A stretch of 64,000 nucleotides of DNA, taken from the NCBI RefSeq assembly GCF_019048525.1, contig NZ_CP077369.1, forward strand, positions 806,001 to 870,000, given 5' to 3'. Positions 34,834-64,000 of this stretch are shown piece by piece. The first letter of the stretch is position 1; each line of letters starts with the position of its first letter. The notes under the pieces were generated by a model. That model saw only the letters and a list, made by a program, of their open reading frames with translations. It was not told the DNA's origin and searched no databases. The translations under genes were made by a program, and so were the position numbers. Source of the stretch: Acinetobacter lwoffii. GTDB lineage: Bacteria > Pseudomonadota > Gammaproteobacteria > Pseudomonadales > Moraxellaceae.

Positions 34834-35925
34834 TTTTTCATCGTCATTTTATCAATCCTCTTTTTCTTGTTCCTAATCAATATCATTTCAGCGATTCCCT
34901 CCCTCTTTTCTATCGAGTAATAAAAGAAATGCCCGATTTTCAATAATGAAATCAAGAAATAACTCAAAAATGAGAAATAAAAAAGTTAAGCAAAAATCGA
35001 TAAAAGTATGATTTTAAATAAAAATGAAAGTTCACTTGATTATTAAATCAATTATGTAGTTTAGCTACATCTTGAGTTTTTAGTTAACAATATGTTCCAC
35101 GGTAATGATTAGAGAAACTACACTATATTTACAAGTATTTAATTTATAATAATTTTTTATTTTAAAGCCAATCCAAGGAATAGTCTGGTCATACTAGCAA
35201 TATATCGCCAAATCTAGCTTTAAATTTAAAATGCTATTTTAAATTTAAAAACACTTATCCACAAGATAATCGATTTCAAATTTGAATTTAAAATAAAGAA
35301 TTAATACGTGGATTAAAGCTTGCGGAAAAATACTATCTTATTCACATAAAAATTATGGGTAACTTTAGAGTTATCCACATCTCTGATCAGGCTTTCTAGA
35401 TGCTTGAAGCAATATTATTCACGTATTATTTAGCGTATTAGACCAAGTTTCTTATAAGCTATTTAAAATTTAAAATTTAGTTTTAGCAGCTTTTTATTTA
35501 TTTTTGAGATATTGGATCTTCTGAATAGGCGATTTATTATTTTTTAGTCGAATCCACCTAAAGTATTCGATCTGTTTTTATTACACGCATCTTTAAATAC
35601 CACTTTGACTGATCCAGTTTTCACCTAGTGTCGTTAACTGCATGCAAACTTCTCATCGTATAAAGAACGTCTTTCTACCTCACTTTCCTATTCAAAAATT
35701 ATTTTAGAAGTTCTGATGCAGATCATTTTTATAACGATAGATTCACTCCAGATTTCAGGTATTCTCCCGAGTTGGTAATCTCTATACATAAACCCTTTCT
35801 TAGAGTCGATTTGGCTTACTCAACTTGGCTTTTTAAAACCTAAATGAACCCGTTCCATATCTAAAAATCGGTCCAAAATTACTTTATTTTGCCTAGCTCA
35901 CAGGATATGAGTAAAAAAATTGGTC
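34834..35925. other. Gene-free AT-rich tract with DnaA boxes
   Basis: About 1.1 kb with no coding frame. Two perfect DnaA boxes (TTATCCACA at 35255-35263 and 35371-35379) lie among repeats of TTTAAATTTAAAA (35217-35245) and CAAATTTGAATTTAAA (35276-35291), with a further copy near 35463. The same combination recurs in oriC and at 62.4-62.8 kb. See findings. Confidence 0.6.
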
Positions 35926-42249: not shown

Positions 42250-42840
42250 CTGAATCCCCTATTCATTCCATTGTTCATTCAAAAAAGATGACCGCGACCA
42301 AAAGCGGGTCGCCATTCTAACCAAGTTATCCACATCTGTCATGGCAATTTCCACAAAAACTGTGCAAAAAGAAATCACCATGCATAAAATTAAATTTAAA
42401 ACCCAGTGTGGATAAGTTTACCCGCAAGCTGTGGATAAAATATATCATAAAGTTATCCACAAAGTATAAAATTAATAGAAACAGTTTTATCCACAATATA
42501 AGTTAATGTTTAAATAAATAAAAAGTGGCTTATCCATAGAAAAAGCGCTCCCTAATAGTAATAAATTTAAATTTATAAATTTGAATTTATTTATAAGATC
42601 ACTGGTTTTTGTGGATAACTCAAAAAACTTCAAATTTAAATTCAAAACCGTAAGTTAAATTTAAACTCTGGATAACATGTGGATAACTTTGTTGATAGAG
42701 TTGTTAATAACTTATATATCTTTATATAACAATAACTTAATTTGTGATTAACTTAAGTTGAACTATTTTTTATTCAGTTCTCTGAACAACTAGGGTCTTT
42801 ATATTTTTTGATCTTATTTGAAAAGAAAACCGCTTTTGCA
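42250..42840. other. oriC: Chromosomal replication origin oriC
   Basis: The dnaA-rpmH gap contains seven perfect DnaA boxes (TTATCCACA or complement): 42326-42334(+), 42407-42415(-), 42430-42438(-), 42453-42461(+), 42487-42495(+), 42610-42618(-) and 42678-42686(-). One-mismatch boxes are at 42530 (TTATCCATA) and 42667 (TCTGGATAA). The stretch 42700-42770, with only A/T and few Cs or Gs (ATATCTTTATATAACAATAAC), is a likely unwinding element beside the last boxes. Palindromic AATTTAAATT-type repeats lie at 42390, 42562-42590, 42631 and 42655. Confidence 0.92.
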
Positions 42841-61043: not shown

Positions 61044-62165
61044 ATGGATAAAACCATCGGTATTTTTGGTGGCGGTCAGCTGGGTCGTATGATGGCGCAA
61101 GCGGCACTTCCATTAAATATTCAATGTACATTTTTTGAAGCCAGCACAGACTGTCCTTCTGCTGCTTTGGGTCCGGTGATTTCGAGCCAGGCTGAAAATG
61201 GTCTGCAAGACTTTATTAATAGTGCAGATGTATTTAGCCTTGAGTTTGAAAATACGCCACTTACAGATGTTGATGTACTGACGCAAAGCAAGCAACTGCA
61301 TCCGCCGCGTCAGGCTTTGGCGATTGCCCAGCATCGTCTGTCTGAAAAAGCCTTGTTTGATGAACTGGCTATTCCGGTTGCACCGTACAAAGCGGTCACT
61401 TCACTGGAAAGCTTAGAGGCTGCTGTAGCTGAACTGGGCTTGCCGATCGTACTGAAAACCTCGCGTGGCGGTTATGATGGTAAAGGCCAATTCGTTTTAC
61501 GTTCGACCGATCAGATGGATCAGGCCTGGGCAGAATTGGGCCCTGCAGGTGAGCTGATTGCAGAAAGCTTTGTCACCTTCTCGCGTGAAGTTTCAATCAT
61601 TGCAGTACGCGGCCAAGATGGTGATGTTAAAACCTGGCCATTGGCGGAAAATCATCATCATGACGGCATTCTGTCGCACTCGATTGTGCCAGCACCGGAC
61701 AGTACTGACTTGCAGCCGGTAGCACAAGAATACATCACTCGCCTGCTGAATCATCTGAACTATGTCGGTGTGCTGACCCTTGAGTTGTTTGTGACAGACA
61801 ATGGCCTATATGCCAACGAGATGGCACCACGTGTGCATAACTCGGGTCACTGGTCGATTGAAGGTGCAGTATGTTCGCAGTTTGAAAACCATGTGCGTGC
61901 CGTGGCAGGTTTACCTTTAGGTTCAACTGAAGTGATCCGCCCAACTGTCTTGGTGAACATCATTGGTCAGCATCCGAAATCTGCAGATGTACTTGCTCTG
62001 GAAGGTGCACATTTGCATCTTTACAATAAGTCAGAGCGCGAAGGCCGCAAGATTGGTCACATTACCCTGATGCCAAATGACAGCGCGCAATTGTCTGTAC
62101 TTTGCCGCCAACTGGCGAAAATTTTACCGAATCCATTGGCATTGAGCGAAGATATGACCATCTAG
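61044..62165 (+). CDS. purK: N5-carboxyaminoimidazole ribonucleotide synthase PurK
   Basis: 373 aa ATP-grasp enzyme that carboxylates AIR using ATP and bicarbonate, feeding PurE. IGIFGGGQLGRMMAQAA opens the N-terminal domain; LKTSRGGYDGKGQFV is the ATP-binding loop; YANEMAPRVHNSGHWSIEGA is the conserved catalytic block. Slightly longer than the E. coli enzyme (355 aa). Operon with purE. Confidence 0.97.
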   Translation: MDKTIGIFGGGQLGRMMAQAALPLNIQCTFFEASTDCPSAALGPVISSQAENGLQDFINSADVFSLEFENTPLTDVDVLTQSKQLHPPRQALAIAQHRLSEKALFDELAIPVAPYKAVTSLESLEAAVAELGLPIVLKTSRGGYDGKGQFVLRSTDQMDQAWAELGPAGELIAESFVTFSREVSIIAVRGQDGDVKTWPLAENHHHDGILSHSIVPAPDSTDLQPVAQEYITRLLNHLNYVGVLTLELFVTDNGLYANEMAPRVHNSGHWSIEGAVCSQFENHVRAVAGLPLGSTEVIRPTVLVNIIGQHPKSADVLALEGAHLHLYNKSEREGRKIGHITLMPNDSAQLSVLCRQLAKILPNPLALSEDMTI

Positions 62166-62179
62166 GCTTTAACTTGCTG

Positions 62180-62214
62180 ATAAAAAAAGCGATCACTTCG
62201 GTGATCGCTTTTTT
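62180..62214 (+). terminator. purEK terminator
   Basis: Stem AAAAAAGCGATCAC / GTGATCGCTTTTTT with loop TTCG. Confidence 0.92.
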
Positions 62215-62379
62215 ATTTGTCTGCTTTCAGGCATGATTGCGCCTCTTCAAAAATACCTGCCATTGGTCGGATCAGTTTTTAAATCAATTGCTTATAAACT
62301 GATCAATTGAGTATAAATATACCAATTCAATAAAATCTTATTTACCGCTGAATTTTGTCATATTCATTTGTGGATAAGC

Positions 62380-62800
62380 CTAAAATCAAAGTTTGAATTT
62401 AAAACTGGAAAGTGGTTTTGAATTTAAATTCATAAAAACAAATTCGAATTTAAATCGGACTTTGAATTTAAACTTGCGCTTTTAAATTCAAAAAAATATG
62501 AATTCAAATTTAAAACTGGATAAATAAATTCAAAGTTTTGAATTTAAAAATATTAGCCCATTATTTAAATGAATTTAAAAGAAAAACTAGTGTAATTAGA
62601 GCATGTTGATGATCGAGAGTCGCTTTTCCTGAAACAAGTTATCCCCAGTAATTTTTAAATTTAAAACTGATTGCAAGTGTTTTGAATTTGAATTTAAAAA
62701 TCCCGCTGATTTGAATTTAAATCAGGCTTGTGGATAACTCATGTTTAAATTTAAAGATTACAAAATGAATTTAAAAGTGTAGGAATTATGGATTTAAATT
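62380..62800. repeat. Dense GAATTTAAA repeat tract with DnaA boxes
   Basis: In about 420 bp, the 9-mer GAATTTAAA or its complement occurs around ten times (for example 62395, 62420, 62445, 62464, 62539, 62571, 62690, 62713, 62767, and TTTAAATTC near 62480). Looser variants such as AAATTTAAA lie near 62506, 62657 and 62746. Perfect DnaA boxes flank and interrupt it (TGTGGATAA at 62369-62377 and 62729-62737), plus a degenerate TTATCCCCA near 62639. Copies occur in both orientations with irregular spacing, so this is not a CRISPR or a simple tandem repeat. No gene. Confidence 0.8.
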
Positions 62801-62878
62801 TACGCATTGGCGCTTTAATTTTCATCATGAGCTGCTAAGGTAGAAACATAATTCAAAATCTAAATACTCAAGGGTCTT

Positions 62879-64000
62879 ATGCAACGGCTTGCACTTTTTA
62901 TTGGTTCTGTGGTCTTGGCTGCTTCACAGGCACAGGCTGAACTTATTATTAATGGTCAACGTGTCACGCCGACTGATTTGACCTCTAGTTCAAATATCCC
63001 GAATTATGCCTCCCAAAATAATTTTCAAAACTGTCTCGCCAATTTGCGCAGTCAAGCTGTTGCTAGAGGTGTAAGCGGCAGTACCTATGATCGTTATACC
63101 CAAAACTTAAGCCCTGATTATTCAGTGATTGAACGCCTGAATTACCAGCCTGAATTTTCTACCCCAATTTGGGATTATCTGTCTGGTTTGGTGGATGAAG
63201 AACGGGTTCAGCTCGGCCGGCAAAAATTACAGCAACATCGTGAGGTGCTCAATCGTGTTGCTGCCACCTATGGTATACCTGCAGAAACGGTAGTTGCGGT
63301 ATGGGGTGTCGAAAGTAATTTTGGTGATATTTCGGGGAAATATCCTTTATTACAGGCTTTAGGAACTTTGAGCTGTGAAGGTCGTCGCCAGAGTTATTTC
63401 CGTGGTGAGTTTTTTACCACTATGAAACTGTTACAGCGTGGCGATGTGCGTGAAGAACAATTAAAGGGTTCCTGGGCAGGCGCATTTGGTCATACCCAGT
63501 TTATGCCATCGACTTATGATGAGCTTGCAGTTGATTTTGATGGTGATGGCCGACGTGATCTAGTTTCGAGCATTCCGGATGCACTCGCATCAACTGCCAA
63601 CTTTTTAAGCAAGCGCGGCTGGCAGAGCGGACAACCTTGGGGTTTTGAAGTCAAGATCCCTCAAGGCATGTCGGTTTCCGATGAAGGCCGAAGAAATAAA
63701 AAATCCTTGAGGAGTTGGATTAATCAAGGTGTAGTTCGTGCCGATGGTTCGGCATTGGTTCAAGGAAATTTATCGCAATCTTCTCAGGCCGGATTGCTTG
63801 CACCTGCAGGCCCGAGTGGTCCAGTATTTTTGGTATTTAAAAACTTTGATGCCATTTATAGCTATAACGCGGCAGAAAGTTATGCCTTGGCGATTGCGCA
63901 TTTATCCGATCGCCTGCAAGGTAAAGGTAGCTTTACGGCCACATGGCCTACTGATGATCCGGGAACTTCTCGTGCAGAACGTCGTGAGATCCAGCAATTT
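62879..64000 (+). CDS. Lytic murein transglycosylase, MltB family, partial
   Basis: The first 374 residues; the C terminus lies past the window. Signal peptide to about residue 20 (SQAQA), so the enzyme is periplasmic; no lipobox cysteine is seen. The catalytic Glu145 lies in AVWGVESNFGD, with GRRQSYFRGEFF and WAGAFGHTQFMPSTYDELAVDFDGDGRRDL, all hallmarks of the MltB (SLT_2) group that cleaves peptidoglycan to 1,6-anhydroMurNAc. ATG 62879 follows AGGG by four bases. Confidence 0.93.
   Translation, partial: MQRLALFIGSVVLAASQAQAELIINGQRVTPTDLTSSSNIPNYASQNNFQNCLANLRSQAVARGVSGSTYDRYTQNLSPDYSVIERLNYQPEFSTPIWDYLSGLVDEERVQLGRQKLQQHREVLNRVAATYGIPAETVVAVWGVESNFGDISGKYPLLQALGTLSCEGRRQSYFRGEFFTTMKLLQRGDVREEQLKGSWAGAFGHTQFMPSTYDELAVDFDGDGRRDLVSSIPDALASTANFLSKRGWQSGQPWGFEVKIPQGMSVSDEGRRNKKSLRSWINQGVVRADGSALVQGNLSQSSQAGLLAPAGPSGPVFLVFKNFDAIYSYNAAESYALAIAHLSDRLQGKGSFTATWPTDDPGTSRAERREIQQF

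Follow-up and report, generated by a model that had tools for sequence, protein, structure and literature searches.

Between purK and a gene for an MltB-family lytic transglycosylase, the chromosome of Acinetobacter lwoffii carries a gene-free stretch crowded with copies of one short motif and with DnaA boxes. What is such a tract for? We analysed it within 64,000 nucleotides of DNA (the window), on which an earlier note had offered several ideas, among them a DnaA titration site like datA and a second unwinding region.

A palindromic motif is clustered between purK and mltB

The stretch from 62369 to 62800 contains 11 copies of the 9-mer GAATTTAAA, 9 on the forward strand and 2 on the reverse strand, in line with the "about ten copies on both strands" first described, and it is indeed free of genes, as it falls between the end of purK (62165) and the start of the mltB-like gene (62879; Table 1). 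The product of the latter has its best matches in A. lwoffii, at 98-99% amino-acid identity. In 5000 dinucleotide shuffles the tract held a mean of 0.11 copies of GAATTTAAA and a maximum of 3. Genome-wide, the 9-mer occurs 149 times in 3.47 Mb (76 forward, 73 reverse), and the binomial probability of finding 11 of these inside 432 bp is 1.5e-27; because the reversed control 9-mer has 119 genome copies, GAATTTAAA is clustered more than it is enriched across the genome. GAATTTAAA is a portion of a 12-bp palindrome, TTTRAATTYAAA, and this 12-mer is the better description of the motif. Nine full copies, starting at 62392, 62417, 62461, 62481, 62537, 62654, 62687, 62710 and 62744, are present in the tract, compared with 0.023 expected from shuffles, and the genome has 25, compared with 6 for the reversed pattern. 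Counted genome-wide, therefore, the motif is strongly concentrated at this place, whether as the 9-mer (11 of 149) or as the 12-mer (9 of 25).

Table 1. Positions of the tract, its flanking genes and the origin-side loci in the window
Feature	Position	Strand	Remarks
Third origin-side locus, beyond the gyrB end	35219..35379		three full AamA sites: 35219, 35238, 35281
dnaA	40873..42249	-	
oriC, upstream of dnaA	42326..42686		seven perfect and two one-mismatch DnaA boxes
purK, left flank	61044..62165	+	
purK-mltB intergenic region, containing the tract	62166..62878		713 bp, 28% GC, non-coding
Terminator-like hairpin 3' of purK, between purK and the tract	62183..62214	+	
Perfect DnaA box TTATCCACA	62369..62377	-	
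AamA-site array	62392..62755		nine full TTTRAATTYAAA sites, one-mismatch copies in between
One-mismatch DnaA box TTATCCCCA	62639..62647	+	in the gap between the array halves
Perfect DnaA box	62729..62737	-	6 bp from the AamA site at 62744
MltB-family lytic transglycosylase gene, right flank	62879..64000	+	continues beyond the window edge

Across 71 tracts (62392-62755 of the window and its relatives), an asymmetric form of the motif, TTTGAATTTAAA, occurs 284 times in the same orientation and 134 times in reverse, an excess that may come from strand composition skew. An apparent strand bias of GAATTTAAA along the chromosome was dropped, as it was seen among 100 of the 149 places listed, with reverse-strand copies seemingly under-listed. 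Comparison of the tract region with curated RNA families gave five matches with E values of 1 or less, each scoring far below its gathering threshold and four of them to the purK terminator hairpin; with no match near threshold, a known RNA or riboswitch was rejected.

The palindrome is the proposed target of the methyltransferase AamA

TTTRAATTYAAA is the proposed target of AamA, an orphan adenine methyltransferase, in the methylome of A. baumannii ATCC 17978 (PMC10483419). Six main target forms were methylated there at 59 of 66 (89%) and 41 of 66 (62%) copies in two runs, and an aamA mutant had zero methylated target copies, indicating that methylation needs aamA (PMC10483419). The mutant grows slowly, and complementation rescued neither growth nor dnaA expression (PMC10483419). 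Methylation of the same or a similar motif has also been described in other A. baumannii strains, where it was only partial (PMC10287943), in A. baumannii again (PMC13227989), and in Acinetobacter NCu2D-2 as well as, as cited there, A. equi (PMC5270691). Methylation of this or similar motifs is thus documented in print for relatives of our host, whose own sites are putative targets.

We assigned the host aamA to a gene for a 430-aa D12-class methyltransferase that has ribD on one side and ribE on the other, with nrdR adjoining ribD. A. nosocomialis has the same block, followed two genes further on by a holC-like gene, and holC and nrdR are the named neighbours of the ATCC 17978 methyltransferase genes (PMC10483419). 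The names ribD, ribE, nrdR and holC come from inspection of the translations by eye, the assignment is based on gene neighbourhood rather than on alignment with A1S_0222, and 430 aa is no obvious fit to the "relatively short" AamA of PMC10483419. Because the gene beside nrdR, ribD and ribE matches the published neighbourhood, we set aside three other candidates: a further D12 gene (291 aa, in a prophage-like setting) and two PF01555 matches, whose open frames span 695 and 625 aa. A relative was found in all 49 further genomes searched, which came from a sample of 50 of the 80 mltB loci described below. Of 119 genomes drawn from across the family, 43 matched. Among the rows listed, all 26 from the same genus were matches, and the 20 listed non-matching rows (of 76) included none from that genus. 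Unlike the statement in PMC10483419 that aamA is missing in some Acinetobacter species and was possibly acquired horizontally, no genome of the genus among those examined lacked it. Since AamA is present in every Acinetobacter genome tested, its presence or absence is uninformative as a test of co-occurrence with the tract.

The tract lies 20 kb from oriC

The tract had been described as far from oriC. We take the region upstream of dnaA as oriC, because it has seven perfect DnaA boxes and because the minimum of the cumulative GC skew, taken over 380 kb, falls within the dnaA region at C1:848404 (window 42404); the window thus includes oriC, at a distance of 20 kb from the tract. It contains one full AamA site, at 42635. 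The earlier note also overlooked a third locus of like make-up at 35.2 kb, about 7 kb from oriC on the side opposite the tract, where 35219-35379 contains, besides its AamA sites, perfect DnaA boxes at 35255 and 35371 and a one-mismatch box at 35338. Together, the tract, oriC and the third locus contain 13 of the 25 AamA sites of the genome, within 27.5 kb around oriC, and 11 of its 55 perfect DnaA boxes.

Parts of this layout recur in relatives. At least one full AamA site was found in the oriC region of 30 of 30 genomes, and the distance from the mltB start to dnaA is 19.5-26.1 kb in 10 of 11 genomes (host included) and 54.6 kb in one, the ten relatives being the long-contig ones of the 30 genomes, with both genes assumed to be on the same contig. 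Two genomes (G041 and G042) have single AamA sites at a distance from dnaA similar to that of the third locus. At an origin-distant place (C1:3077463; L170 1964-1986), a lone AamA site lies 2 bp from a perfect DnaA box.

The tract is conserved and its AamA sites are under purifying selection

At 71 of 80 mltB loci, at least three full AamA sites are present within 900 bp upstream of mltB, and 69 of these 71 array-bearing loci also have a perfect DnaA box. At one further locus, L064, about 1.1 kb of DNA lies between the last of eleven sites and the other ten, which are further upstream; once it is counted, 72 of 80 loci have the tract, and the retention in relatives on which its special status had been made to depend is borne out. 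A gap of about 1.1 kb upstream of mltB divides the array in two strains, L056 and L064, and is probably an insertion in both. The eight tract-less loci (L076, L081, L082, L084, L085, L086, L087 and L089) all have an mltB with at most 73% identity to that of the host, as do some carriers. AamA is present in all eight tract-less genomes, and since 8 of 80 loci do without the tract despite this, it is not needed genus-wide.

To compare AamA sites with their surroundings we used 16 disjoint close pairs of tracts from 37 pairs found. AamA-site positions differ at 27 of 2022 (1.3%) and A/T positions outside the sites at 553 of 4979 (11.1%), so that the sites must be held by selection, and base composition is excluded as the reason. 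The AamA sites of the tract are therefore under strong purifying selection, a claim that rests on this close-pair test, as a column-identity test is open to inflation from repeat-to-repeat alignment.

Genomes without the tract (n=8) have a mean of 5.1 full AamA sites upstream of dnaA, compared with 3.0 in genomes with it (n=20), among non-independent lineages and with 2 of the 30 genomes left out (L145, cut flank; L148, borderline). Upstream of mltB in A. apis (L085 2618-2792), there are six DnaA-like boxes with a TATCCAC core, in both orientations, and zero AamA sites; the other seven tract-less loci have no such box cluster. The boxes of A. apis and the difference at oriC suggest that DnaA binding is central at this locus and that AamA sites can move between oriC and the side locus.

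AamA sites occur at preferred distances from DnaA boxes

The 71 tract-bearing sequences, window included, contain 142 perfect DnaA boxes, compared with 0.4 expected from shuffles. The other 10 sequences contain 0 perfect boxes; when up to one mismatch is allowed they contain 10, compared with 2.4 expected, and for A. apis 7 near boxes are listed. In the window, a perfect box marks the left edge of the tract (62369-62377), as originally described, and the second is not at the right edge but 63 bp inside it. The IHF consensus is not enriched in the 71 tracts (17 matches against 13.1, sd 3.1), for a consensus that could miss weak sites; by the same consensus the window has one match, at 62282, left of the array.

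We measured the spacing between boxes and sites in 41 lineages, each with one hand-picked representative (81 boxes, 383 sites). The nearest AamA site 5' of a box was 0-6 bp away in 26 cases (null 13.5) and 12-16 bp away in 18 (null 7.7), and never 7-11 bp (null 8.4) or 17-20 bp away (null 5.3). On the 3' side, the nearest site was 15-20 bp away in 21 cases (null 8.1) and never 0-4 bp away (null 10.2). All of these classes, which were chosen post hoc after inspection of the data, lie outside the range of 500 random placements, except the 17-20 bp gap. The pattern was unchanged when the first member of each lineage, and then 200 random picks, were used instead: the favoured classes had 24-27, 14-18 and 20-24 cases, and the 0-4 bp class at most one. 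AamA sites are thus located at preferred distances from DnaA boxes, which, because lineages may share positions by descent, is to be read as a conserved arrangement and not as a count of independent events. The best period on the 5' side is 11.7, not 10.5. At oriC (31 sequences, distances up to 45 bp), 5'-side distances are 14-16 bp in 15 of 30 cases, and 3'-side distances are 5-6 or 28-29 bp in 22 of 37. Between AamA sites there is no clear helical period (power 1.43 at 10.7 compared with a mean of 0.94), and we make no claim of site-to-site phasing from this weak signal. The irregular spacing reported earlier consequently holds from site to site, whereas AamA sites and DnaA boxes are placed non-randomly with respect to each other.

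The tract probably corresponds to the densest AamA region of A. baumannii

A. nosocomialis is a close relative of A. baumannii, and in its complete genome 15 of 40 AamA sites (30 strands) are in the tract and 4 are at the dnaA region, every other cluster having at most four close sites. Two AamA regions are the densest in ATCC 17978: one at rnpA/dnaA with 9 methylated sites (region 2), and one in which 29 methylated sites were counted in one run and 28 in the other (region 1; PMC10483419). The A. nosocomialis counts fit these figures, and region 1 is most likely the purK-mltB tract. The target in ATCC 17978, TTTRAATTYAAA, is identical to the motif of the tract; its sites are treated in PMC10483419 mainly as gene-regulatory, whereas we read the tract as replication-linked, and the words oriC, purK and mltB do not occur in the main text of that paper. 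Both the host and A. nosocomialis also have a four-site AamA cluster inside a gene that by eye is methyltransferase-like (L156 2421-2957; L158 1781-2074), which may be region 12 (smtA) of PMC10483419.

The tract as a candidate control site for replication initiation

The description of the tract as a conserved, origin-proximal array of AamA targets combined with DnaA boxes is well supported. Its methylation sites, its DnaA boxes and its retention in most relatives together argue that it probably serves as a control site for the start of chromosome copying. More specifically, we propose, with moderate confidence, an origin-proximal site of initiation control that is bound by DnaA and methylated by AamA, and whose state is reset with each round of replication. 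DnaA would bind the boxes and form an oligomer across the adjoining, spacing-constrained sites, so that the tract would hold DnaA, or promote its inactivation, outside oriC. Because it is only 20 kb from oriC, the tract would be duplicated almost at once after initiation and pass from the fully methylated to the hemimethylated state. Hemimethylation would then alter the binding of DnaA, or of a methylation-reading protein, to the tract, and this altered binding would help to block immediate re-initiation until AamA restored methylation. We infer DnaA binding, sensitivity to methylation and an effect on initiation from the composition, position and conservation of the tract.

SeqA was found in 0 of 59 Acinetobacter genomes, with a positive E. 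coli control, and so no known reader of hemimethylation is at hand. A broader proposal, which we advance tentatively, is that Acinetobacter has a replication licensing of its own, in which AamA targets at oriC and in origin-side DnaA-box arrays allow hemimethylation to time initiation without SeqA. Hemimethylated composite elements would be read directly by DnaA oligomers or by some other reader, and where the purK-mltB tract is missing, sites are on average denser at oriC (5.1 against 3.0), as if the load had moved from oriC to the side locus.

The main rival to initiation control is control of mltB: the tract would be a methylation-controlled promoter region in which AamA sites overlap regulator sites and tune a cell-wall enzyme, the boxes coupling it to replication. 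The tract does lie directly upstream of mltB, several clades (L045, L039, L056 and L064) have a full site about 25 bp before the start codon, and the aamA mutant shows a 1.6-fold change in mltA that is restored by complementation (PMC10483419), the published mltA being, we infer, the mltB-like gene described here. However, about nine to fifteen sites in 400-650 bp (host, A. nosocomialis) are far above what a promoter needs, all 30 genomes compared have the same sites and boxes at oriC, these recur on the gyrB side, and ten of the eleven sites of L064 are about 1.1 kb removed from mltB. We therefore regard mltB control as rather unlikely, though a serious competitor. More doubtful is that the array serves a nucleoid or segregation protein as its binding platform, the DnaA boxes being secondary; such a protein would read AamA methylation and act as an organiser of the centromere or SeqA type. 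A dense origin-side array that is retained while its spacing varies between clades is what such a protein might use, and methylated sites are concentrated there in print if the identity of the region holds (PMC10483419), but the tracts have a strong excess of DnaA boxes, A. apis has DnaA-like boxes without AamA sites, and SeqA itself is absent.

It is very improbable that the tract is a replication origin or, as once suggested, a second unwinding region. It is AT-rich, has DnaA boxes, shares its motif with oriC, and lies where skew is weak (0.005 per base between oriC and the tract, compared with 0.02 beyond the tract), but the 380-kb skew minimum is 20 kb away in the dnaA region, which has seven perfect boxes to the two of the tract, and with no skew switch at the tract we rejected it as the true oriC. 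A neutral expansion of an AT-rich repeat, or a mobile-element leftover, is scarcely credible in spite of low GC and of copy number and arrangement that vary between clades, given that the sites differ eight-fold less than neighbouring A/T positions, which contradicts neutrality, and that 72 of 80 loci carry the tract.

Comparison with known systems

The datA locus of E. coli (94.7 min) is farther from oriC, by the familiar map position of that origin, than the tract is from its own (20 kb). Both are clusters of DnaA boxes outside oriC, the tract having two perfect boxes and a one-mismatch box, and datA is a non-coding locus that works with an IHF site (PMC5295017, PMC5742627). The earlier idea of a datA-like DnaA site fits the enrichment and conservation of the boxes, but it missed the AamA methylation target, which is the main feature of the tract; the available text of PMC5295017 and PMC5742627 does not describe datA as a methylation array. 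We do not file the tract as a datA, because a role for IHF is unsupported (the tracts are not enriched for the consensus) and promotion of DnaA-ATP hydrolysis, another mark of datA, is a biochemical trait. The oriC-proximal DnaA-box clusters of B. subtilis, likewise near but outside oriC, are thought to lower free DnaA, and removing six of them leads to early initiation (PMC5295017, PMC5742627), although PMC5295017 in one passage describes them as having no significant part in initiation. In contrast to the tract, they are not described as carrying an adenine methylation array in the available text of these two papers.

Like Dam, GATC and SeqA at E. coli oriC (PMC5295017), the AamA system combines an adenine methyltransferase with targets clustered at the origin. 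The AamA target, however, is long and rare (25 sites in the host genome), its largest cluster is 20 kb from oriC, and SeqA is lacking, for which reason we do not file it as a SeqA system. The gammaBOriS motif of Acinetobacter oriC, TAAATTTAAATTTA, overlaps the AamA palindrome and is a genus mark of predicted origins, but its annotation is that of a DnaA trio rather than of a methylation site (PMC7174414). Our best estimate is that the tract would act in the manner of datA and of the DnaA-box clusters of B. subtilis, with a further input from its methylation state.

Significance

The AamA methylome (PMC10483419) and predictions of Acinetobacter origins (PMC7174414) have already been published. 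In a literature search that excluded supplements and most subscription papers, we found nothing linking the purK-mltB tract, DnaA boxes and AamA sites, and no account of how SeqA-less Acinetobacter limits replication to once per cycle. The tract is a concrete, deletable candidate for such a limit. It could also explain why AamA is retained throughout the genus and why the aamA mutant grows slowly, a phenotype so far read mainly as one of gene regulation and drug tolerance.
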